Below are positions 8,395 through 63,464 of a stretch of DNA of 64,000 bases, one piece after another; positions within the stretch are counted from its first letter, which is position 1, and each line of letters opens with the position of its first letter. The stretch lies in NCBI GenBank assembly GCA_016209015.1, contig JACQWY010000027.1:62001-126000 (forward strand). Direction: 5' to 3'. The notes beneath the pieces were generated by a model. It searched no databases. It was not told the DNA's origin and was given only the letters and a program-made list of their open reading frames with translations. The stretch comes from Gammaproteobacteria bacterium. Its GTDB lineage: Bacteria; Pseudomonadota; Gammaproteobacteria; Ga0077536. The translations under genes and the position numbers were made by a program.

Positions 8395-9264
8395 ATGAGC
8401 ACACTCGCTTTCATCGGACTCGGCGTCATGGGCTTTCCCATGGCCGGCCACCTCGCGCGGGCCGGCCACGACGTCGCGGTTTACAACCGGACGCGCGCGA
8501 AAGCCGAGCGCTGGGTCGCGACGTACGGCGGGCGCTCGGCTGCGACGCCGCGGGAAGCGGCAGCCGGCGCCGAAATCTGCTTCACGTGTGTCGGCAACGA
8601 CGACGATCTACGCGCCGTCGTGCTCGGCGCCGACGGCGCTTTCGCCGGCCTCGCGTCCGGCGCGCTCCAGGTCGATCACTCCACGACCTCCGCCACGGTT
8701 ACGAAGGAGCTCGCCGCGGCGGGCGCCCCTGCGGGCATCCATTTTCTCGACGCGCCGGTGTCCGGCGGTCAGAGCGGCGCGGAGCAGGGCATCCTGACCG
8801 TCATGTGCGGCGGCGACGCTGCGCCGTTCGCGCGCCTCGAGCCCGTGCTGCGGGCCTACGCCCGCACGGCGCTGCTGCTCGGCCCCGTCGGCGCCGGCCA
8901 GCTCACGAAGATGGTGAACCAGATCTGCATCACCGGGCTCCTGCAGGGACTCGCCGAGGCCATGAATTTCGGCCAGCGCGCCGGGCTCGACATGGAGCGC
9001 GTGGTCGCCGCAATCAGCCGCGGTGCGGCGCAGTCCTGGCAGATGGACAACCGCGCGCTGACGATGTGCCGCGGCGAATTCGATTTCGGTTTCGCCGTCG
9101 ACTGGTTGCGCAAGGATCTCGGGATCGTGATCGACGAGGCGCGGCGCAACGGCGCTTCGGTGCCGGTGACCGCGCTCGTCGACGAGCTCTACGCGCTCCT
9201 GGAGGCCGCCGGCGGCGGACGGCGCGATGCCTCCAGCCTCATCGAAGTTCTGAGGAGGCGCTGA
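8395..9264 (+). CDS. NAD(P)-dependent beta-hydroxyacid dehydrogenase (3-hydroxyisobutyrate dehydrogenase family)
   Basis: 289 residues, full length. The Rossmann fold starts at once with FIGLGVMGFPMAGHL (dinucleotide loop, residues 7-20). The substrate-binding DAPVSGGQSGAEQG (about 119-132) and the catalytic block GAGQLTKMVNQ with Lys172 and Asn175 are all intact. Family members oxidise 3-hydroxyisobutyrate, tartronate semialdehyde, or reduce glyoxylate and succinic semialdehyde; which one applies here is not readable. GGAGGGG precedes the ATG. The next gene starts 2 bases after the stop. Confidence 0.88.
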   Translation: MSTLAFIGLGVMGFPMAGHLARAGHDVAVYNRTRAKAERWVATYGGRSAATPREAAAGAEICFTCVGNDDDLRAVVLGADGAFAGLASGALQVDHSTTSATVTKELAAAGAPAGIHFLDAPVSGGQSGAEQGILTVMCGGDAAPFARLEPVLRAYARTALLLGPVGAGQLTKMVNQICITGLLQGLAEAMNFGQRAGLDMERVVAAISRGAAQSWQMDNRALTMCRGEFDFGFAVDWLRKDLGIVIDEARRNGASVPVTALVDELYALLEAAGGGRRDASSLIEVLRRR

Positions 9265-9266
9265 AG

Positions 9267-10553
9267 ATGTCCACTGTCGTCGCGAAGACCACACCCGCCA
9301 TCCGCGACATGATCGCGGCCGCCGAGACCGGCGATCCCGAAGCGCAGTACCGGCTCGCCGAGCGGCTGCGCCAGCGCGGCAGCCTCGACGTCGATACGAA
9401 GCAGTCCGTCGTCTGGTATCTGCGCGCCGCGAAGGCGGGGCACGTCGCGGCGCAGTATCGCCTCGGCTGCTGCTTCATCGAGGGCCTGGGTTGTCCGCGC
9501 GAGGCGGAGCGCGCGCTGACCTGGTTCCTGATGGCGGCGGAGCAGAACCACGGCGAGGCGCAGGCGCTCGCCGCGTGGTGCTATCACACCGGCACGGGCA
9601 CCGAACGCGACATGGATCGGGCGCTCACCTGGTATTACGCGGCGGCCGCGAACGGCAATCTAGTCGCGCAGTTCAATCTCGGGGAGATCTTCGCGAAAGG
9701 ACTCGGCGTCGCGCAGGATCAGGCCGCCGCGCTGCGGCACTGGGAAATTGCCGCGATGGGGGGCTATGCGAAGGCGCAGCTCAATCTCGCACTCGCCTAT
9801 GCGAACGGCGAGGGCACGCTCCGCGATTTCGAGCAGGCGATCTACTGGTGCACGCGCGCCGCGGACACGGGGTATGCGAAGGCCCAGTACAACCTCGGCC
9901 TGATCTATGCGAGCGCGTCTTACCGTCCCGACTATCTCGAGCAGGCGGAGCGCTGGCTCGAAATGTCGGCGAAGCAGAATTTCGCGCCGGCCCAGTACGC
10001 GCTCGGGCGCTTCTATCAACGCGGCCGACGCAGGGAGAAGGGCCCGGCGGAAGCCGTCGCGTGGCTGCGCAAAGCCGCGGACCAGGGCCACATGAAAGCC
10101 GTCTATCGCATCGCGCTTGCCTACGAGGAAGGCTACGGCATCGGGATGAACCGGCCGCGCGCGATGGCCTGGCTCAGACATGCCGCGGAGCTCGGCTACG
10201 CAGTTGCACAGTACGAAATCGGTCGGCGCAGCCTGTTCGGTCAGGCACCCGGCGTGGTGAAGGAAGAGGGCATCCGCTGGTTCGAGAAGGCCGCCATGCA
10301 GGGCCACGTCCGCGCCCAATACGGTCTCGGCATCTGTTATGCGAGCGGTGTCGGCGTAACGCGCGATCTCCCGCGCGCTTATTCGTGGCTCGCGATCGCC
10401 GCCGACAACGGTCTGCCGAAGGCCCAGCATCGGCTCTCGCTGCTCGAGGAGCAGCTCGATCCGCTCGCGCTCGCGGAAGGGCGGCGCCGTCTGCAGGCGA
10501 AGCTCCGTCAGATCGCCGGGCATCGCGAAGGCGCCGACGGCGAAGTCGGGTAG
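9267..10553 (+). CDS. Sel1-repeat (tetratricopeptide-like) protein
   Basis: 428 residues made almost entirely of about ten 36-residue Sel1-like repeats, with the recurring pattern A-x-x-Ala-Gln-Tyr/Phe-x-Leu-Gly-x-x-Tyr. No signal peptide or membrane segment is visible, so it should be a cytoplasmic adaptor. Its partner is unknown. It begins 2 bases after the dehydrogenase gene with GAGGAGG as ribosome-binding site inside that gene's end. Confidence 0.85.
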   Translation: MSTVVAKTTPAIRDMIAAAETGDPEAQYRLAERLRQRGSLDVDTKQSVVWYLRAAKAGHVAAQYRLGCCFIEGLGCPREAERALTWFLMAAEQNHGEAQALAAWCYHTGTGTERDMDRALTWYYAAAANGNLVAQFNLGEIFAKGLGVAQDQAAALRHWEIAAMGGYAKAQLNLALAYANGEGTLRDFEQAIYWCTRAADTGYAKAQYNLGLIYASASYRPDYLEQAERWLEMSAKQNFAPAQYALGRFYQRGRRREKGPAEAVAWLRKAADQGHMKAVYRIALAYEEGYGIGMNRPRAMAWLRHAAELGYAVAQYEIGRRSLFGQAPGVVKEEGIRWFEKAAMQGHVRAQYGLGICYASGVGVTRDLPRAYSWLAIAADNGLPKAQHRLSLLEEQLDPLALAEGRRRLQAKLRQIAGHREGADGEVG

Positions 10554-10557
10554 ACGC

Positions 10558-11415
10558 TCAGCCGCGTCGTGCGCGCCACGCGGTCGCGGCGAGGATCAGC
10601 ACGCCGCCGGCGAGGCTCGTCGCACCCGGTACTTCGCCGAGGACGAACCACACCCACACCGGGCTCAGCACCGGTTCCAGGAGCAGCAGTAACGCGCTCT
10701 CCAGCGCCGAGAGCCGCTGCATGGCGCGCGAGATGAGCAGGAACGCGGTGCCGAGCTGGACGATCCCCATGTAGACCACCCAGCCCGCGTCGGTCACGCC
10801 CGCACGTGCCGGCCAGCCGAGCGCCGGCAGCAGCGTCGCGGCGAGCGCGGCGTTCGCGACGATCACCGCGGCGATCGTGCGCTCGAAGCCGTCGGCGCGG
10901 CGCGCCAAGCTGCGCATCGCGAGCGTGCTCAAGCCCCAGCAGCAGCCCGCGCCCGCTGCGACGATCGCACCCAGCGCCGGATTCGGAGCGGTTCGCGATG
11001 CATCACCCGGGTGCGCGACGAGCAGCGCCATGCCGCACAACAGCACGGCGACGTAGGCGAGATCGCGCGGCCGCACCGCCTCGCCCAGCACGAGCGGCGA
11101 GAGCAGCAGGACGTAAACCGGCGCGGTGTATTGCAGGAAAACTGCGGTCGCCGCGCTCGCGAGCTTGTTCGCCCACATGAGGAGGAGCGTCGTCGCGACG
11201 TGGGTCGCGATCGCCGGCAGCAACGAATTGTCGAACACCGTCAGGCGCGGCCGCACCGCGAGCGCGAGGAACGACGCGATCACGAGCGCGCGCCAGCCGG
11301 CGAGCTCGAGCGCGCCGAGTGTCGTCGCCTTGATGACGGTCGCGCCGGTCGACAGCAACACGGTCCCGAGGACGAGCTCGACGTAGGCCGCGCGCGGCGC
11401 GCGTTCACAATTCAT
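10558..11415 (-). CDS. EamA/DMT-family transporter
   Basis: 285 residues, very hydrophobic, with about ten predicted membrane segments arranged as two EamA repeats (the first opening with VELVLGTVLLSTGATVIKA, the second after residue 145 with ALGAIVAAGAGCCWGLSTLA). Members export amino acids, nucleosides or other small metabolites from the cytoplasm. The substrate cannot be told. It converges on the Sel1-repeat gene with only 4 bases between stops, and points away from the aminotransferase gene with a 110-base divergent spacer. Confidence 0.87.
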   Translation of the reverse strand: MNCERAPRAAYVELVLGTVLLSTGATVIKATTLGALELAGWRALVIASFLALAVRPRLTVFDNSLLPAIATHVATTLLLMWANKLASAATAVFLQYTAPVYVLLLSPLVLGEAVRPRDLAYVAVLLCGMALLVAHPGDASRTAPNPALGAIVAAGAGCCWGLSTLAMRSLARRADGFERTIAAVIVANAALAATLLPALGWPARAGVTDAGWVVYMGIVQLGTAFLLISRAMQRLSALESALLLLLEPVLSPVWVWFVLGEVPGATSLAGGVLILAATAWRARRG

Positions 11416-11525
11416 GGAGTCGTTCGCTGTCCGGTAGGCGCAGGCCGGTGAAAACGTCTAGAATGGTGCAGCGTTCCGCCGCTCGGGCGGAATCCTAGCA
11501 GCAGATTCCACGAAGGAGAAAGCAC

Positions 11526-12920
11526 GTGAGCTTGAAACCCGGCAGCAATGCTGCGCGTGACGTCGCAGCCGTTCTTCATCCGATGATCAATCTCGGCATG
11601 CTCGAGGAGAAGGGCCCGCTGATGATCTCGCGCGCCAAGGGCGTGTACATCTGGGACGATCAGGGCAAGCAATACATCGAAGGTCTCGCGGGCCTGTGGT
11701 CCACCGCGCTCGGCTACGGCAACGAAGAGCTCGCCGACACCGCCTATCAGCAGCTCAAGGATCTCTCGTTCCAGCACATGTTCATGGGCAAGAGCCACGA
11801 GCCCGGCATGCTGCTCGCGGAGAAGCTGAAGGAGATCGCGCCGCTGAACGCCTCGCGCGTGTTCTTCGGCTGCTCCGGCTCCGATGCGAACGACACCCAG
11901 GTCAAGCTGATGTGGTTCTACAACAATGCGCTCGGCCGTCCGAACAAGAAGAAGATCATCGGACGCGTGAAGGGCTATCACGGCATCACGGTCGTCGCCG
12001 GCAGCCTGACGGGTCTCGCGCCGATGCACACCGGCTGGGATCTGCCGCTCGATTGCGGCCGCTTCCTGCACACCGATTTCCCGCATCACTACCGTCATGC
12101 CGAGAAGGGCGAGTCCGAGGAGGATTTCGCGACGCGCTGCGCGAACAATCTCGAGCAGATGATCCTCCGCGAAGGGCCGGACACGGTCGCGGCGTTCATC
12201 GCCGAGCCGGTCATGGCCGCGGGCGGCGTGATCATTCCGCCGCGCACTTATTTCGAGAAGATCCAGGCCGTCTGCACGAAGTACGACGTGATCTTCATCG
12301 CCGACGAAGTCGTGTGCGGCTTCGGGCGCACGGGCAACGCGTTCGGCTCGCAGACGTTCAACATCAAGCCGGACAGCGTGACGTTCGCGAAGGCGCTGAC
12401 GTCGTCGTACCAGCCGCTCAGCGCGGTCGTCATCAACGACAAGATCTACCAGGCGTGCCTGGACGGCAGCAAGAAGCTCGGCACGTTCGGCCACGGCTAC
12501 ACCTACAGCGGCCATCCGGTGTGCTGTGCGGTCGGGCTCAAGACGATCGAGATTTATCAGCGCGACAGGATCTTCGAGCACGCCGCGAAGATGGCGCCGA
12601 AGTTCCGGGCCCGCCTCGAAGGCTTCCAGGATCATCCGCTAGTCGGCGAAGTGCGCAGCGTCGGTCTCATCGGCGCGATCGAGTTCGTCTCGAACAAGGC
12701 GACGAAGGCCGGCTTCACGCCCGCCGGCAGCGTCGGCGCGTATGCCTTCGATCGCTGCCACGCGCACGGCCTCGTCGCGCGCAACGTCGGTGACGGCGTT
12801 GCATTCTGTCCGCCGCTGATCGTCAACGAGGCGCAGATCGACGAGATCTTCGACAAGTTCGCGCTGGCCCTGCAGGACACGCTGGACCACGTCACGCGCG
12901 AAGGCCTGCTCGCCGCCTGA
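11526..12920 (+). CDS. Class III PLP aminotransferase (omega-amino acid/diamine:pyruvate type)
   Basis: 464 residues. Signatures of subgroup II omega-transaminases are complete: IEGLAGLWSTALGYG near the N-terminus, CSGSDANDTQVKL (about 116-128), FIADEVVCGFGRTG (about 257-270) and the Schiff-base lysine in TFAKALTSSY (Lys289). This group includes putrescine/spermidine (SpuC) and beta-alanine:pyruvate aminotransferases. The GTG at 11526 has AAGGAG about 8 bases upstream. With the gamma-glutamyl ligase (3332) and gamma-glutamyl hydrolase (15154) it could serve polyamine breakdown, but it is not in an operon with them. Confidence 0.88.
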   Translation: MSLKPGSNAARDVAAVLHPMINLGMLEEKGPLMISRAKGVYIWDDQGKQYIEGLAGLWSTALGYGNEELADTAYQQLKDLSFQHMFMGKSHEPGMLLAEKLKEIAPLNASRVFFGCSGSDANDTQVKLMWFYNNALGRPNKKKIIGRVKGYHGITVVAGSLTGLAPMHTGWDLPLDCGRFLHTDFPHHYRHAEKGESEEDFATRCANNLEQMILREGPDTVAAFIAEPVMAAGGVIIPPRTYFEKIQAVCTKYDVIFIADEVVCGFGRTGNAFGSQTFNIKPDSVTFAKALTSSYQPLSAVVINDKIYQACLDGSKKLGTFGHGYTYSGHPVCCAVGLKTIEIYQRDRIFEHAAKMAPKFRARLEGFQDHPLVGEVRSVGLIGAIEFVSNKATKAGFTPAGSVGAYAFDRCHAHGLVARNVGDGVAFCPPLIVNEAQIDEIFDKFALALQDTLDHVTREGLLAA

Positions 12921-12925
12921 TGCTG

Positions 12926-12953
12926 CGGGTGCCGCGCTCCGGCACGGCACCCG
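12926..12953. terminator. Hairpin after the aminotransferase gene
   Basis: Nine-base perfect arms (CGGGTGCCG / CGGCACCCG) with a 10-base loop start 6 bases after the aminotransferase stop. Only a short pyrimidine tract (TTCTCCC) follows, so it is a weak intrinsic terminator candidate just before the hydrolase start. Confidence 0.4.
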
Positions 12954-12962
12954 TTCTCCCCG

Positions 12963-13757
12963 ATGCCCATGTCGAATTACGCGAACACGCCGCCGCTGCT
13001 CGCCGTCGGCGATCTCGAGCTCGAATACCGATATCTCCCGCGCGGCGCACGTCCGACGCTCGTGCTGCTGCACGAGGGGCTCGGGTGCTGTGCATTGTGG
13101 CGCGATTTCCCGGAACGTCTGCAGGACGCGACGGATCTGCCGGTGTGGCTCTATTCGCGCGCGGGCTACGGGCGTTCGAGTCCGATACGCCTGCCGCGTC
13201 CGCTCGACTTCATGACGCGTGAGGCCGAGCTCCTGCCCGCCATTCTCGATGCCGCCGGGATCGCGGAGTGCATTCTCGTCGGCCACAGCGACGGCGCTTC
13301 GATTGCGCTCGTGAACGCCGGCAAGGTCCACGACCCGCGCGTGCGGGGCATCGTGCTGATGGCGCCGCACGTGATGACGGAGCCGATGGGTCTCGCCAGC
13401 ATCGCCGCCGCGCGCGCGGCTTACGAGAGCGGTGATCTGCGCGCACGGCTCGCGAAGTATCACGGTGCGAATGTCGACTGCGCGTTTCGCGGCTGGAGCG
13501 GTGCCTGGCTCGATCCGGATTTCGTGCGCTGGAGTCTGGAGCACTACGTCGACGATATCGAAGTGCCCGTACTGCTGATTCAGGGAGCCGACGATCAGTA
13601 CGGTACCCCCGAACAACTGCGGCGCATCGAGCGCCGTCTGCGTGTGCCCTTCGAAACGGCTCTGCTCGACGACTGCCGGCATGCACCGCAGTTCGACCAG
13701 TCGGCGCGGACGCTGGAATCGATTGCCGCGTTCGTGGCGCGCGTGCGGGCGGGCTGA
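12963..13757 (+). CDS. Alpha/beta-fold hydrolase
   Basis: 264 residues with a standard alpha/beta-hydrolase layout: oxyanion segment LLHEGLG (about 35-41), a GYGRSS turn, nucleophile elbow GHSDGAS (Ser109), acid in the block IQGADDQYGT and a terminal His in DDCRHAPQFD. It resembles the small serine hydrolases that cleave esters or C-C bonds of organic acids; no substrate can be assigned. It is a cytoplasmic protein without a signal peptide. The alternative ATG two codons downstream (MSNYAN) is equally possible. Confidence 0.82.
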   Translation: MPMSNYANTPPLLAVGDLELEYRYLPRGARPTLVLLHEGLGCCALWRDFPERLQDATDLPVWLYSRAGYGRSSPIRLPRPLDFMTREAELLPAILDAAGIAECILVGHSDGASIALVNAGKVHDPRVRGIVLMAPHVMTEPMGLASIAAARAAYESGDLRARLAKYHGANVDCAFRGWSGAWLDPDFVRWSLEHYVDDIEVPVLLIQGADDQYGTPEQLRRIERRLRVPFETALLDDCRHAPQFDQSARTLESIAAFVARVRAG

Positions 13758-13770
13758 GGAATAGCGAGGG

Positions 13771-13791
13771 CCGGCGGCGTTGCGCCGCCGG
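13771..13791. terminator. GC hairpin between convergent genes
   Basis: A perfect nine-base stem (CCGGCGGCG / CGCCGCCGG) with a TTG loop lies in the 46-base gap between the convergent hydrolase and thiolase genes. No T-run follows on either strand, so it would act, if at all, as a bidirectional Rho-assisted stop. Confidence 0.4.
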
Positions 13792-13803
13792 ACCCGGTGA
13801 GAC

Positions 13804-14982
13804 TCAGAGGACTTCGAACAGACCCGCGGCGCCCATGCCGCCGCCGATGCACATCGTGATGACGACGTTCTTCGCGCCGCGGCGCTTGCCTTCGATCAAC
13901 GCGTGGCCGATGAGGCGGCTGCCGGTCATGCCGTAGGGATGACCGACGGCGATCGCGCCGCCGTTCACGTTCAGCCGCTCGTTCGGTATGCCGAGCTTGT
14001 CGCGGCAGTACAGCACCTGAACCGCGAACGCCTCGTTCAGCTCCCAGAGATCGATGTCCTCGATCTTGAGCCCGGTGCGCTTCAGGAGCTTAGGGATCGC
14101 GAATACCGGACCGATGCCCATCTCGTCGGGCTCGCAGCCGGCGACCGCGAAACCGCGGAAGACGCCCAGCGGCTTCAGACCCTTCTGTGCGGCCAGCCTG
14201 TCGCTCATGACGACCTGCGCGGACGCGCCATCCGAGAACTGGCTCGCGTTGCCGGCGGCGACGACGCCGCCCTCGACGGCCGGCTTGATCTGCGAGATGC
14301 CTTCATACGTCGTGTCGGCGCGGATGCCTTCGTCCTCGGCCGCGGTCACCGCCTTGATGGATTCCTGGCCCGTGCCTCTGTCGACGATTTTCATCTTCGT
14401 GGAGATCGGGACGATCTCGTCCTTGAACCTGCCGGCTTCGCGCGCCGTCGCGGCCTTCTGCTGGCTCTCGACGCCGAAGCGATCCTGCGCTTCGCGTGAA
14501 ATCTTGTAGCGCCTCGCGACGTTCTCGGCGGTCGCGAGCATCGGCAAGTAGATGCCGGGCTTGTGCTCCTTCAGCCATTCATCCTCGAACATGTGACGAT
14601 TCATCTCGTTCTGCACGCAGGAGATGGATTCCACGCCGCCCGCGACGAAGCACTCGGCCTCGCCGACGATGATGCGCTGCGCGGCGAGTGCGACGGTCTG
14701 GAGGCCCGAAGAACAGAAGCGATTGATGGTCATGCCGGAAACCTCGATCGGCATGCCGGCGGCGAGCGCAATCTGACGCGCGATGTTCCAGCCGGTCGCG
14801 CCCTCGGGATTCGCGCAGCCCATGATCACGTCCTCGACTTCGGCCGGGTCGAGGTTCGCGCGCTCGAGCGCGGCTTTCACCACGTGTCCGCCCATCGTCG
14901 CGCCATGGGTCAGGTTCAGGGCCCCGCGCCAGCTCTTGCAGAGCGGGGTTCTTGCGGTGGATACGATCACGGCCTCGGTCAT
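13804..14982 (-). CDS. Acetyl-CoA C-acyltransferase (thiolase)
   Basis: 392-residue thiolase, either degradative (beta-oxidation) or acetoacetyl-CoA forming. The acyl-accepting Cys is in [10 protein letters not shown] (Cys90), the His in [14 protein letters not shown], and the second Cys in [12 protein letters not shown] near the C-terminus. The inserted loop with [15 protein letters not shown] is characteristic of the FadA/AtoB-like acetyl-CoA acetyltransferases of proteobacteria. The start is placed at 14982 because CGAGGAG stands 6-12 bases upstream and the family begins at this point. It is single-gene, divergent from the C26 hydrolase. Confidence 0.93.
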
Positions 14983-58329: not shown

Positions 58330-59217
58330 ATGTCCGATACCGAGCCTCTCATCGAGCGCTTCCTCGATCATCTGTGGGCCGAGTTCGGACTCAGTGACCA
58401 CACCGTGGCCGCCTATCGCAACGACCTCCTGACTTTGCAGCGCTTTCTCCATGCACGTGGCCGCCGCCTCGAAGCTGCCGAAGAATCGGATTTGTACGGC
58501 TTTCTGAGCGAAGCCACGCGTCATTCGGCCCGTACGGCGTCGCGACGTCTGTCGGCCGTCCGGCGTTTCTACCGTTATCTCCTCCGTGAACGGATCGTGA
58601 CCGTGGATCCCACGCTGCGCGTGACGGGCCCCCGGCTCGGACGGCACTTGCCTAAGTCGATCACCGAGGAGGAGGTTGAGCGCCTGCTCGGAGCTCCGGA
58701 CGTGAATGAAGCGCTCGGCGTGCGCGATCGCGCCATGCTGGAAACCCTCTACGCGACTGGACTGCGGGTCTCCGAACTCGTCACCATCAAGCTCGGTCAA
58801 ATGAATCTCGCGCAGGGAGTCGTACGCGTCATCGGCAAGGGCAGCAAGGAGCGGCTCGTCCCGCTGGGTGACGAAGCCCTCGCCTGGTTGCAGCGTTTCC
58901 TTGCCGGTCCGCGGCAGGACCTGCTGCGTGGCCGGCTCACCGAAGCCTTGTTTCCGACCGCGCGCGGCGATGCCATGACCCGTCAGATGTTCTGGCATCT
59001 GATCAAGAAGCACGCCGCCAAAGTCGGGATCCAGGCGCAGCTCTCGCCGCATACGCTGCGCCATGCCTTCGCGACGCATCTGCTCAATCACGGCGCGGAT
59101 CTGCGTGTGGTGCAAATGCTGCTCGGACACAGCGACATCTCGACGACCCAGATTTACACGCATGTGGCGCGCGAGCGCCTGAAGGAACTCCACGCTCACC
59201 ACCATCCGCGCGGGTGA
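58330..59217 (+). CDS. xerD: Site-specific tyrosine recombinase XerD
   Basis: 295 residues. The N-terminal SAM-like DNA-binding domain (about 1-90) and a catalytic domain with ATGLRVSELV (first Arg), LSPHTLRHAFATHLL (His-x-x-Arg), GHSDIS and TTQIYTHV (Tyr nucleophile). With XerC it resolves chromosome dimers at dif; no dif-like site was noticed here. In E. coli dsbC follows xerD; here two genes on the other strand lie between. Confidence 0.95.
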   Translation: MSDTEPLIERFLDHLWAEFGLSDHTVAAYRNDLLTLQRFLHARGRRLEAAEESDLYGFLSEATRHSARTASRRLSAVRRFYRYLLRERIVTVDPTLRVTGPRLGRHLPKSITEEEVERLLGAPDVNEALGVRDRAMLETLYATGLRVSELVTIKLGQMNLAQGVVRVIGKGSKERLVPLGDEALAWLQRFLAGPRQDLLRGRLTEALFPTARGDAMTRQMFWHLIKKHAAKVGIQAQLSPHTLRHAFATHLLNHGADLRVVQMLLGHSDISTTQIYTHVARERLKELHAHHHPRG

Positions 59218-59226
59218 GTGCGTCGA

Positions 59227-61071
59227 TCAGCGTTCGACGTGGGGGAGCGGATGATCGACGTCGGAGGGCGGCACCACGCTGATGACCTCACCGAGCGTGG
59301 TCTTGCCGGTCGCGACTTTGAGTGCGCCGGCCATGCGGAGCGGCACCATGCCGTGTTCCAAGGCGTGCCGGCGCAGGATCAGCGCCTGCGCATGAGGACG
59401 GATCATCTCACGCATCTCGTCGTCGACCGTCAGCATCTCGTAGAGTCCTTCCCGGCCGCGGAATCCGGTATGGCGGCACTCGTCGCAGCCCACGGCCTCG
59501 TTCACGGACTTCGGCGGATCGAGCGGGTAGGCGAGCACGAATTCGCGCCAGGCCTTCGGATCCATGCGCGTCGGTTTCCGGCAATGCGGGCACAGCGTCC
59601 GCACCAGCCGCTGAGCGACCGCGCCGAGCAGGGTCGCGCCGATCAGATACGGTTCGACGCCGAGGTCCATCAGGCGGGTGATCGCCGATGGCGCATCGTT
59701 CGTGTGCAGCGTCGAGAGCACGAGATGCCCCGTGAGCGCCGCCTGGATGGCGACGTTCGCGGTCTCGCGATCGCGGATCTCGCCGACCATGATGACGTCC
59801 GGATCCTGGCGCAACAGCGTGCGCACGCCGCCCGCGAAATCCAAATCTATCGCCGGCTGAACCTGCATCTGGTTGAACGCCGGCTCGACCATTTCGATAG
59901 GATCCTCGATCGTGCAGACGTTGATCTCCGGGCGCGCGATCTGGCGCAGCGCGGAATACAGCGTCGTGGTCTTGCCGGAGCCTGTCGGACCCGTGACCAG
60001 GATGACGCCGTGCGAGTGCGAGGTCATGCCGTGCCAGTTCTCGAGATCGTGTGGGGAGAACCCCAGTGTCTCGAACGGCTGTTCGAGTTTGTCGGGATCG
60101 AAGATGCGCATGACGAGCTTCTCGCCGAACGTCGTCGGCATCGTCGACAGTCGCAACTCGATCTCGCGGCCGTGCGGGGTCTTCGTCTTCAGCCGACCGT
60201 CCTGCGGGCGGCGTTTGTCGGCAACGTCCATGCGACCCAGCGACTTGATCCGGCTGATGATGGCACCGACCACCGGCGTCGCGATTTGATTGACGAGGTG
60301 CAGTACGCCGTCGATCCGGAAGCGGATGTTGCTCTCGTCGCGGCGCGGCTCGATGTGAATGTCGCTCGCACGCTGCTCGAACGCGAACTGCAGCAGCCAG
60401 TCGACGAGATGCACGATGTGCTGGTCGTTCGCGTCGGGCTCGCCGACCTGGCCGAGCTGGGTGAGCTGCTCGAAGTTGTCGACGATGCTCGTCCGCTCGC
60501 TTGCCTTGCTGCTCGCCGCCCGGACGATCGAGCGGCTGACGCCGTAGAACTCCTTCAGATAGCGTTCGATGTCGACCGGATTGGCAAGCACGCGCTTGAT
60601 GCGGCGCTTGAGGATCGGCGCTATTTCGGGCTCCCACTCCGAGATGTAGGGTTCGGCGGAAGCGATGACGACCTGCGCGTCGCTGACCTCGACGGGCAGG
60701 AACTGGAAGCGCGTCGCATAGGCTTGCGAAACCAACCCGGTCACCGCCTCGACGTCGATCTTCAGGGGATCGATACGGTAGTAGGGCACGTTGCACGCTT
60801 CGGCGACGAGGCGCGTGATCACTTCCAGCGTCAGAGGATAGCTCGGCGTCGTGTCCGTCTGCAGAGTCTGCGTGGCGAGTTGAACGAAAGGATGGCGTTC
60901 GTCCTTCGGACTGTGCGCCGCCTTGAGGCGCTGCAGCGTGCGCACGCCGAGTACGCCCTTCTGCTGCAGCAGCGTCAGCGTCTCGAGAAAGGACAGCTTG
61001 CGATTCGAGGAGGGCGGCTGCTTCGCCGCCGCGCCGCGACCCTGTTGCGGCACCTCGCCTGGCGCGGTCAC
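59227..61071 (-). CDS. GspE/PilB-family secretion ATPase, orphan
   Basis: 614 residues from GTG at 61071. An N-terminal GspE_N-like region (about 25-180), then the hexameric ATPase with SDIHIEPRRDESNIRFRIDG, Walker A VTGPTGSGKTTT (Lys367), Asp box TIEDPIE, Walker B DPDVIMVGEIRDRETA (423-438), His box LSTLHTNDA, and the tetracysteine zinc site C494/C497 and C529/C532. Such motors power type II secretion or type IV pilus assembly. No pseudopilin, platform or secretin gene is near. The start overlaps the kinase stop (GTGA), so the two proteins are made together. Confidence 0.92.
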   Translation of the reverse strand: MTAPGEVPQQGRGAAAKQPPSSNRKLSFLETLTLLQQKGVLGVRTLQRLKAAHSPKDERHPFVQLATQTLQTDTTPSYPLTLEVITRLVAEACNVPYYRIDPLKIDVEAVTGLVSQAYATRFQFLPVEVSDAQVVIASAEPYISEWEPEIAPILKRRIKRVLANPVDIERYLKEFYGVSRSIVRAASSKASERTSIVDNFEQLTQLGQVGEPDANDQHIVHLVDWLLQFAFEQRASDIHIEPRRDESNIRFRIDGVLHLVNQIATPVVGAIISRIKSLGRMDVADKRRPQDGRLKTKTPHGREIELRLSTMPTTFGEKLVMRIFDPDKLEQPFETLGFSPHDLENWHGMTSHSHGVILVTGPTGSGKTTTLYSALRQIARPEINVCTIEDPIEMVEPAFNQMQVQPAIDLDFAGGVRTLLRQDPDVIMVGEIRDRETANVAIQAALTGHLVLSTLHTNDAPSAITRLMDLGVEPYLIGATLLGAVAQRLVRTLCPHCRKPTRMDPKAWREFVLAYPLDPPKSVNEAVGCDECRHTGFRGREGLYEMLTVDDEMREMIRPHAQALILRRHALEHGMVPLRMAGALKVATGKTTLGEVISVVPPSDVDHPLPHVER

Positions 61072-62378
61072 GAGCGCGCCGGCTCCGCGAGTTGGGACAT
61101 GCGCTCGGTCGCGATCTCGAGGCGTTCTATCAGCGCGGCCAGGAAATTCCGCTGGAAGCGGAGTTGGCAGTTCACCGAGGTCCGGTCGATCACCGAGCCG
61201 CGGACCTTCATCACGGTCACGTCGGTCTTCGAGACGATCGTCGCGCTGCGGTGGCGGCCGGAGACGAGTCCCATTTCGCCGAAGCAATCGCCGCGCTTCA
61301 GGGAAATTATCTCGCGCCCGTTCTTCAGCACCACCACCTCGCCGCTCACCACGATGAAGAACGAAGCCTCGCTCTCGCCCTCGCCGATGATTTTCTCATC
61401 CGGGCCGAGTTTGAACCACTCCGCCGCGTTGATCACTTCCCAGAGCTCGAGGTCCTGGAATTCCGCGAAGAATGGCAGGTCGTGGACGCGCGCATATTTC
61501 TCCTGCTGCGTCGTGCGCCCGTCCTGTTTGCGCAGGAAATCGTTCACGAGTGCGAGATCGCCCGCGAGGTCGGCGCCGGTCTTGTAGCGGTGCTTGGGCT
61601 TCTTGGCGAGCACCTTGTCGATGATGCGTTCGAAGATGGGCGGAATTTCCGCCCGGTAGTCCGCCAGGGGCCGATGCCGCGCCGTCACGGTCAGATGATT
61701 GATCGCTTCCAGGTTGCGACCTTCGAACGGGTGTTTGCCGGTCAGGAGCTCGTAGGCGACGATACCGAGCGAGAAGAGATCCGACTGGCCGGTGACGGGT
61801 TCCTGCTTCACCTGCTCGGGCGACATGTAGAGGGGTGAGCCCGCATGTTCGGGCAGGTGGTCGTCCGCGAGGTGGGCAACTACCGCGACGCCGAAATCGG
61901 TGATCTTGACGTCGAAGCTGTCAGTGAGGAGCAGATTGCGCGGTTTGATGTCCCGATGCACCACGCCTTTGCGGTGCGCATAGTCGAGCGCGAGCGCGCA
62001 CTGATAGCAGATGCTCGTGATGCGCTCGATCGGCAGGAGCTTGGAGACGCTCGTGAATTCCTCGAGCGTGCGGCCGCCGTGGACGTATTCCATGACGATG
62101 TAGAAGTGCCCGTTGTCGCTGCCGGCGTCGTAGATCGCGGTGATGTTCGGATGCTTGAGCATCCCGGCCGCCTGCGCCTCGTTGAAGAAGAGACGCCTGT
62201 AGATCTGCGCGTTGTCGCCGTCTTCGACGTGCTCGCTGCGCGCGACCTTGATCGCGACCGGACGATCGATGAAAGGGTCCTGGGCGAGGTAGACGGTCGC
62301 CATGTTCCCTTCGCCGATCTTTTTCAGGATCTGGTACTTCCCGAGCGCTTTGCCTTCGAGTGTGGACTCCGAGCTCAT
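61068..62378 (-). CDS. Serine/threonine protein kinase with C-terminal cyclic-nucleotide-binding domain
   Basis: 436 residues. Hanks-type kinase at about 15-285: KIGEGNMATVYLA loop, VAIKV (Lys44), VVHRDIKPRNLLL (Asp143), DFG (161-163) and MSPEQ. A cNMP-binding domain follows at about 303-415 with GEGESEASFFIVVSGEVVV and the phosphate cassette FGEMGLVSGRHRSAT, where Arg377 is the expected phosphate ligand. No membrane segment. It is thus a soluble kinase probably gated by cAMP or cGMP. It is translationally coupled to the secretion ATPase downstream, a likely substrate or partner. The start at 62378 (MSSEST) is preferred to 62393. Confidence 0.92.
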   Translation of the reverse strand: MSSESTLEGKALGKYQILKKIGEGNMATVYLAQDPFIDRPVAIKVARSEHVEDGDNAQIYRRLFFNEAQAAGMLKHPNITAIYDAGSDNGHFYIVMEYVHGGRTLEEFTSVSKLLPIERITSICYQCALALDYAHRKGVVHRDIKPRNLLLTDSFDVKITDFGVAVVAHLADDHLPEHAGSPLYMSPEQVKQEPVTGQSDLFSLGIVAYELLTGKHPFEGRNLEAINHLTVTARHRPLADYRAEIPPIFERIIDKVLAKKPKHRYKTGADLAGDLALVNDFLRKQDGRTTQQEKYARVHDLPFFAEFQDLELWEVINAAEWFKLGPDEKIIGEGESEASFFIVVSGEVVVLKNGREIISLKRGDCFGEMGLVSGRHRSATIVSKTDVTVMKVRGSVIDRTSVNCQLRFQRNFLAALIERLEIATERMSQLAEPARS

Positions 62379-62735
62379 GCGCACCCCGTGCACGACGCGC
62401 GCTGCCGCGCGCTTCCCGACCCGAGACCCTCGAATTCCTGCCGATATCTGCGACGCTTCACACCTGCTCCTTGCGGCCAGCCCGGTTTCGAGCCTTCGGG
62501 TTCATAGCGGCCATGGGCATCAGCGCTTGACGGATGCCGGCGCGCGGTCCCCGACCGCGCCGGATTGTAGGCCATTACCGGTGCCCCAACCACGACTCGC
62601 GACGCGATTCGCCACGTTTCCGGCGGGAACGCCCCCGCGCCTCCGGGGTCTCAGTTCGAGTCAATCCTGGCCGGCGGCGTGAAGTGCCTCTACACTTGCA
62701 CGCGCGCGAACGCCCACCCACGACGAGGTCCCCTG
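62379..62735. other. Divergent gene-free region between the kinase and dsbC
   Basis: About 357 bases, GC-rich. It holds an imperfect hairpin near 62537-62562 (CCGGCGCG ... CGCGCCGG around a C-rich loop) and no strong promoter match on either strand. The region should hold promoters of both divergent genes. Confidence 0.5.
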
Positions 62736-63464
62736 ATGAAGCCGAGTAAACTCCTTGCCGCCCTCTGCCTGCTTGCTGTCGCCTGCGCGACGCGTGCCGA
62801 GGACGATCTCCAGAAACGGCTGACGGCACGTATCCGCTCCGTGCTCCCGGACGCCAAAGTCACCAGCGTGAAGCCGGCCCCGATCGCGGGCCTCTACGAG
62901 ATCATGATCGGTCCGTCACTGCTCTACATGACCGAGGACGGCAAGTTCATCGTCAAAGGCGACATCTTCGACGTGGCCGCGAAGCACAACGTCACCATGA
63001 GCCGCCGGGCCCAGGCCCGCGTGGAGGGCTTCAAGTCGCTGGGCCCGGATTCGATGATCGAGTTCGCCCCCGCCAGTGGACAGGCCAAGCGTACGCTCTA
63101 CGTGTTCACGGACATCGACTGTGGTTATTGCCGCAAACTGCACAAGGACATCAAGACGCTCACCGATGCCGGCATCGCGGTGCGCTACCTGGCGTTCCCG
63201 CGTACCGGACTGAACAGTGAGTCCTACAACAAGGCCGTCGCGGTCTGGTGCGCGCCCGATCGCAAACAGGCCCTGACCGACGCGAAGAACGGCAAGACCG
63301 TCGAATCGAAAGAGTGCCCGAACCCGGTGAAGGACCACTTCAGAATGGGCGAGGCGATGGGCGTGCACGGCACCCCGGCCGTCTATCTCGACACCGGCGA
63401 GGAACTGGGCGGCTACATCCCGCCAGGTGAAATCGTCCGCATGCTGAACGAGGGCGAGATCTGA
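62736..63464 (+). CDS. dsbC: Thiol:disulfide interchange protein DsbC
   Basis: 242 residues. Signal peptide (first 20-21 residues, ending ATRA), dimerisation domain (about 22-85) and thioredoxin domain with TDIDCGYCRKLH (Cys129, Cys132) and cis-Pro loop GVHGTPAVYL. A second Cys pair (CAPDRK... KEC) lies in the helical insert as in E. coli DsbC. It isomerises wrong disulfides in the periplasm. The ATG at 62736 has GAGGTC upstream; a longer start at 62679 would hide the signal. Usual neighbour of xerD. Confidence 0.94.
   Translation: MKPSKLLAALCLLAVACATRAEDDLQKRLTARIRSVLPDAKVTSVKPAPIAGLYEIMIGPSLLYMTEDGKFIVKGDIFDVAAKHNVTMSRRAQARVEGFKSLGPDSMIEFAPASGQAKRTLYVFTDIDCGYCRKLHKDIKTLTDAGIAVRYLAFPRTGLNSESYNKAVAVWCAPDRKQALTDAKNGKTVESKECPNPVKDHFRMGEAMGVHGTPAVYLDTGEELGGYIPPGEIVRMLNEGEI

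Follow-up and report, generated by a model that had tools for sequence, protein, structure and literature searches.

The kinase–tfpB locus

In the window (the whole stretch of 64,000 nucleotides analysed), the gene of a Hanks-type kinase with a C-terminal cyclic-nucleotide-binding domain (cNBD) directly precedes that of a TfpB-family ATPase, between genes of the xerD and dsbC types. The features are as follows.

58330..59217, + strand: xerD-type recombinase (Phage_integrase and SAM-like domains), convergent neighbour
59227..61071, − strand: TfpB-family type IV pilus extension ATPase, 614 aa, GTG start (assigned by NF053534 and tree)
59281..60429, − strand: T2SSE catalytic domain (T2SSE, 1e-125), with P-loop GPTGSGKT and four-Cys motif intact
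60532..60792, − strand: MshEN domain of TfpB (MshEN, 8.6e-16)
61068..61071, − strand: GTGA overlap of kinase stop and ATPase start
61068..62378, − strand: Hanks-type kinase with C-terminal cNBD, 436 aa, ATG start; orthologue starts at about the same place
61191..61409, − strand: cyclic-nucleotide-binding domain, residues 324-396 (Pfam PF00027, 5e-15)
61242..61283, − strand: phosphate-binding cassette FGEMGLVSGRHRSA with Glu368 and Arg377
61581..62336, − strand: protein kinase domain, residues 15-266 (Pfam PF00069, 8.8e-54)
61935..61958, − strand: catalytic loop HRDIKPRN, residues 141-148, complete in this protein but without its Asp in a sister lineage
62679..63464, + strand: dsbC-type disulfide isomerase (DsbC_N and thioredoxin domains), divergent neighbour

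The TGA of the kinase gene (61070-61068) overlaps the GTG of the ATPase gene (61071-61069) as GTGA. The VAIK Lys, HRD Asp and DFG Asp that define Hanks-type Ser/Thr kinases are all present, and the cNBD scores 55.7 bits on PF00027 (cut-off 27.5) with phosphate-binding residues E368 and R377 in place. Neither protein contains a transmembrane-like stretch; the 19-residue Kyte-Doolittle mean peaks at 1.23 for the kinase and at 1.44 for the ATPase. A preliminary description of the locus as a soluble kinase with an intact cNBD, ending in a GTGA overlap with a complete GspE/PilB-type ATPase, is thus borne out with exact coordinates. Its statement that no other type II secretion or pilus genes lie nearby also stands: the 190-kb contig carries no other GspE/PilB ATPase gene and no GspF/PilC gene. 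In pattern scans, sigma-70-like promoters numbered 0 (0.3 in shuffled sequence), and the single terminator-like site, located inside tfpB, fell below the shuffled mean of 2.3. No CRP-like site was found on the + strand of the window.

AlphaFold2 (16 sequences) modelled the kinase protein with a mean pLDDT of 83.4 and a pTM of 0.64. The predicted model combines a kinase fold with successive strands resembling a cNBD beta-roll; its last helix (402-430) is long. The best Foldseek matches were PknB kinase domains, followed by other kinase domains, with no convincing match to the whole two-domain chain. The nearest solved relatives of the cNBD are the cNBDs of PKG and of the PKA regulatory subunit, in which a cNBD is likewise joined to, or acts on, a protein kinase. 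Here, however, the kinase is bacterial and PknB-like, with a single cNBD on its C-terminal side, whereas in PKG the cNBDs precede the kinase.

Identity of the ATPase

The best NCBIfam model for the ATPase is TfpB (NF053534), with 849.3 and 849.6 bits, which is under the curated cut-off of 850 bits by less than 1 bit. Full-length relatives in its clade score 807-860, on both sides of that cut-off. Across 58 relatives the TfpB scores form two groups, with full-length members at 674-907 bits, one truncated member at 620 and everything else at or below 486; PilB and GspE of the same genome reach 430-435 bits on this model. By these scores the window ATPase is TfpB, grouping apart from PilB and GspE. 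What had been described as an orphan secretion ATPase is instead a member of the family known from Acinetobacter as a further type IV pilus motor. In Acinetobacter baylyi, pilus extension has TfpB as its second motor, and efficient piliation requires both TfpB and PilB (PMC8213720). That protein belongs to the same NCBIfam family and is likewise an orphan PilB-like ATPase encoded away from pilC in a genome with PilB (PMC8213720). The window tfpB gene is not beside pilC either, and its genome also has PilB. In contrast to the Acinetobacter case, TfpB here is coupled to a kinase-cNBD protein; the main text of the Acinetobacter paper does not contain the word 'kinase' (PMC8213720).

The window genome encodes five other GspE/PilB-type ATPases: PilB (810.8 bits; cut-off 675.65), GspE (667.9 bits; cut-off 630.25) and three more that carry no assignment by curated cut-off. 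The preliminary description had proposed a search for a pilus or secretion cluster lacking its own ATPase; such a cluster was ruled out, as each of the five has a GspF/PilC gene close by. Three PilT/PilU-family ATPase genes lie in tandem (L070:8284-11781), one more than in the usual pilT-pilU pair. Judged by sequence, the motors of a T4aP set are present in this genome.

Conservation of the pair within the order

The order searched comprised 36 genomes from a single family. In 21 of them TfpB was matched at 1e-180 or better, and two more genomes (G007 and G026) have tfpB genes cut by contig ends, giving 23 tfpB loci. The kinase gene is directly upstream of tfpB in 21 of these loci (the window, 19 of 20 further loci inspected, and G007). 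The exceptions are G015, which has no kinase, and G026, which has only a remnant with stops; in G025 the reading frame of the kinase is broken near residue 40, possibly through an assembly error. At 22 of 22 loci, tfpB has a candidate start at a distance of −29 to +54 nt from the stop of the kinase gene. Conservation of gene order and spacing in relatives thus excludes a chance pairing.

None of the 13 tfpB-less genomes of the order has a kinase of the tfpB-linked clade. In all 12 of those where dsbC was found, xerD lies directly beside it, as an empty site. The hypergeometric p for the pairing is 4.5e-8, a value uncorrected for kinship and too optimistic, because losses are few events and neighbouring genes can be lost together. 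Four of the 13 tfpB-less genomes have a PilB over cut-off and all four lack the kinase; it is therefore TfpB, not PilB, that the kinase accompanies.

Distribution and history outside the family

Scoring the best three or four candidates per genome, we found TfpB in 93 of 370 genomes of the class, with the kinase adjacent by coordinates in five (G000, G008, G146, G159 and G264). The single genome in the family of G146 and the four in that of G264 yielded no new pair. Four loci outside the family (G351, G255, G145 and G160) have the order xerD-tfpB-dsbC without the kinase. The preliminary description had named regular occurrence of the ATPase without the kinase as evidence against it. This was found outside the lineage, where 57 of 60 TfpB loci lack the kinase and three have it (4 + 56 inspected directly), but not inside it, where 21 of 23 loci have it. 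The survey of co-occurrence divides in the same way, with a coupled module kept as a unit in the lineage but a mostly kinase-free TfpB elsewhere. None of 80 loci in the matches listed, which were paralogues, has TfpB directly beside the kinase; at one (L229), a 35% identical ATPase lies about 2 kb from a kinase paralogue.

Both trees were quick ones with SH-aLRT support only. In the kinase tree, the 24 tfpB-linked kinases all fall into a single clade (support 99) that spans three families, the window's and two others, and tfpB adjoins every one of them. Their sister group is formed by TfpB-less kinases of family f103 (L164-L166; G248, G137 and G339). The TfpB tree covered TfpB sequences only, from genomes other than A. 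baylyi. In it, all tfpB genes of the xerD-dsbC gap and the relocated genes of G159 and G264 form one branch (support 97), and the gap branch covers five families (f1, f111, f112, f125 and f126). In G159 and G264 the kinase-tfpB pair lies outside the gap, having moved together. The simplest history on these trees would be that tfpB settled in the gap once, that the kinase joined it once, and that the kinase was later lost several times. The suggestion of an insertion between xerD and dsbC therefore holds for an old event, for which tfpB-less relatives display the empty site, but not for a private one, given a single clade over five families.

We found no published report of a kinase-cNBD/TfpB pair in a search that had most subscription journals outside its range. 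The parts are ordinary and their arrangement is well conserved; their function is one that we infer.

Loss of catalytic residues in one branch

Seven of the linked kinases, all from one genus group (G003, G011, G018, G024, G031, G034 and G035), have lost the HRD Asp. The motif reads HQN, HRN or HRQ, and two of the proteins also have NFG for DFG; K44 and N148 are kept. These dead kinases form one branch in the kinase tree (support 100). No loss of the HRD Asp occurred in the 17 other linked kinases, in 55 unlinked paralogue rows or in the 4 TfpB-less rows of families f103 and f59. The cNBD Glu and Arg are present in 7 of 7 dead kinases and in all 83 aligned kinases. For the unlinked rows, conservation of both the HRD loop and the cNBD residues is partly by construction, as some of them (at most 22 of the 55) were found by HRD-loop/cNBD motifs, the remaining rows coming from whole-protein searches. 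For the three closest dead-dead pairs, dN/dS ranged from 0.09 to 0.18 over the kinase part and from 0.11 to 0.16 over the cNBD part, indicating that the dead-kinase genes are not decaying. In the pairs tested, purifying selection acts on the kinase gene and on tfpB alike.

With catalysis lost and the pocket kept in this branch, the cyclic-nucleotide sensor may be the part that matters, and phosphotransfer appears to be dispensable in some lineages. The ligand residues carry this argument; overall, the cNBD part of the dead lineage is no more conserved than the kinase part. The kinase-motor module of the preliminary description, in which cAMP or cGMP gates a kinase acting on or with the motor, is upheld as a conserved unit, but gating by phosphorylation is weakened by the seven of 24 linked kinases that lack the catalytic Asp and keep the ligand residues of the cNBD.

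Second messengers and kinase paralogues

The residue that follows the key Arg of the cNBD varies among orthologues (S, T, A, C or G), so that the nucleotide, cAMP or cGMP, cannot be predicted from it. Four class III cyclases over cut-off are encoded in the window genome: a GAF-GAF-PAS-cyclase that is close to adenylate cyclases and lies on the same contig as the pair, a CHASE2-cyclase, and two proteins in which the cyclase is followed by a C-terminal FHA domain (G000:C61:60370, L106; G000:C57:249724, L107). FHA domains read phosphothreonine. The cyclase-FHA proteins, taken with the several kinase-cNBD proteins, suggest a phosphothreonine/cyclic-nucleotide loop in which signalling from kinase to cyclase would be possible.

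Further kinase-cNBD paralogues lie beside unrelated genes in the window genome. One such open reading frame (L101) is directly downstream of, and as called overlaps, a same-strand 1383-aa PilZ-DUF1631-GGDEF-EAL frame (8815-10209 and 10160-14311). Two more genes, about 2-3 kb apart (L102:4711-14624), have as neighbours a glucose/sorbosone dehydrogenase-like gene and one for a PAS-MCP protein. About 2 kb from the CHASE2-cyclase gene there is an 858-aa frame that contains a kinase (G000:C20:4471-7772; L103, L105).

MshE is itself a c-di-GMP receptor, with two motifs of 24 residues each for binding (PMC5013675). Another MshEN protein is PA3740 of P. aeruginosa. A relaxed form of the published 24-residue pattern (RLG...Q) matched none of 60 TfpB N-termini, and the N-terminal 260 residues of the window TfpB contain no such motif; the same pattern occurs once in each of two other ATPases of the window genome. 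The MshE/MshEN ATPases resemble the arrangement proposed here in that an extension ATPase of the same superfamily is placed under a nucleotide second messenger (PMC5013675). Unlike MshE, TfpB here is without c-di-GMP motifs, and the sensor would be a separate cNBD protein.

Discussion

Family membership, coupling, co-inheritance, intact cNBD residues and a branch that has lost the catalytic Asp can all be read from the sequences. They are consistent with kinase-tfpB being a regulatory cassette, coupled in translation, that serves type IV pilus extension, with the kinase-cNBD protein as a dedicated regulator of TfpB, a proposal for which we hold the case to be about evenly balanced. TfpB would serve the cell's T4aP machine alongside PilB, as a second motor for extension. 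A cyclic nucleotide, most likely cAMP, would bind the cNBD, and the ligand-bound cNBD would alter the action of the kinase domain on TfpB. In most lineages this action would probably be phosphorylation of TfpB or a partner; in one sublineage, the catalytically dead kinase domain could act by binding only. TfpB as the target, cAMP as the ligand and the sign of the effect are what we infer. Several observations count against the cassette. TfpB is kinase-free at most loci outside the family and in G015, and next to a mere remnant in G026; the f103 sister kinase is kept without TfpB, and the paralogues of the same genome stand beside unrelated genes. A mirror-tree analysis of 14 genomes, drawn from the available pairs with six loci left out on purpose, gave a partial correlation between kinase and TfpB of −0.05 given xerD and dsbC, that is, no excess co-evolution. 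A search for TfpB phosphosites yielded three Ser/Thr columns tied to active kinases, none of them clean.

The kinase might be co-transcribed with tfpB yet act on other targets, the tight spacing reflecting shared expression only. We judge this unlikely. It gains from the mirror-tree result, from TfpB standing alone elsewhere and from the existence of a wider kinase-cNBD family, of which a genome carries several members beside unrelated genes, but it has to accommodate a single kinase clade with tfpB adjoining throughout, in three families and after relocation as a unit, as well as the absence of that clade wherever the order lacks tfpB. Slightly more doubtful is a cyclic-nucleotide-dependent adaptor whose cNBD controls docking on TfpB, the kinase fold being a scaffold and catalysis optional. 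The change of the HRD Asp to N or Q in seven of 24 linked kinases (two losing the DFG Asp as well), the seven intact cNBD Glu/Arg pairs, the low dN/dS of the dead-dead pairs and the lack of such losses among the unlinked paralogue rows all speak for it; yet the 17 other linked kinases, the window's included, retain all catalytic residues checked, and in the dead lineage overall identity of the cNBD part is not above that of the kinase part. The empty xerD-dsbC sites of the 12 readable tfpB-less relatives would also fit a foreign, mobile signalling module that inserted at xerD only recently and has no settled function, but the distribution of gap tfpB as one clade over five families largely excludes this on the trees, and the purifying selection on both genes is a further argument against it; we consider it highly improbable.

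Within the proposal of a dedicated TfpB regulator, a more specific version, which we put forward only tentatively, is that a cyclic mononucleotide controls pilus extension at the motor itself: the cNBD protein would dock on TfpB, and its kinase domain would be in transition from enzyme to pseudokinase scaffold. If true, a pilus motor would here receive cAMP (or cGMP) signals post-translationally, in place of signals from c-di-GMP, for which this TfpB has no binding motif. The PilB-PilZ-FimX system and CpiA are likewise cases of accessory proteins that tune an extension ATPase (PMC11656802). They involve other proteins and other messengers, however, and CpiA acts on PilB, not on TfpB (PMC11656802).

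Why some bacteria need two extension motors is named as an open question in a review of PilB (PMC11656802). A dedicated regulator that is co-inherited with the second motor leads to the hypothesis that TfpB is the point at which a messenger other than c-di-GMP enters. In close relatives, active, dead and lost kinases form a natural series that makes the role of phosphotransfer in this lineage directly testable.
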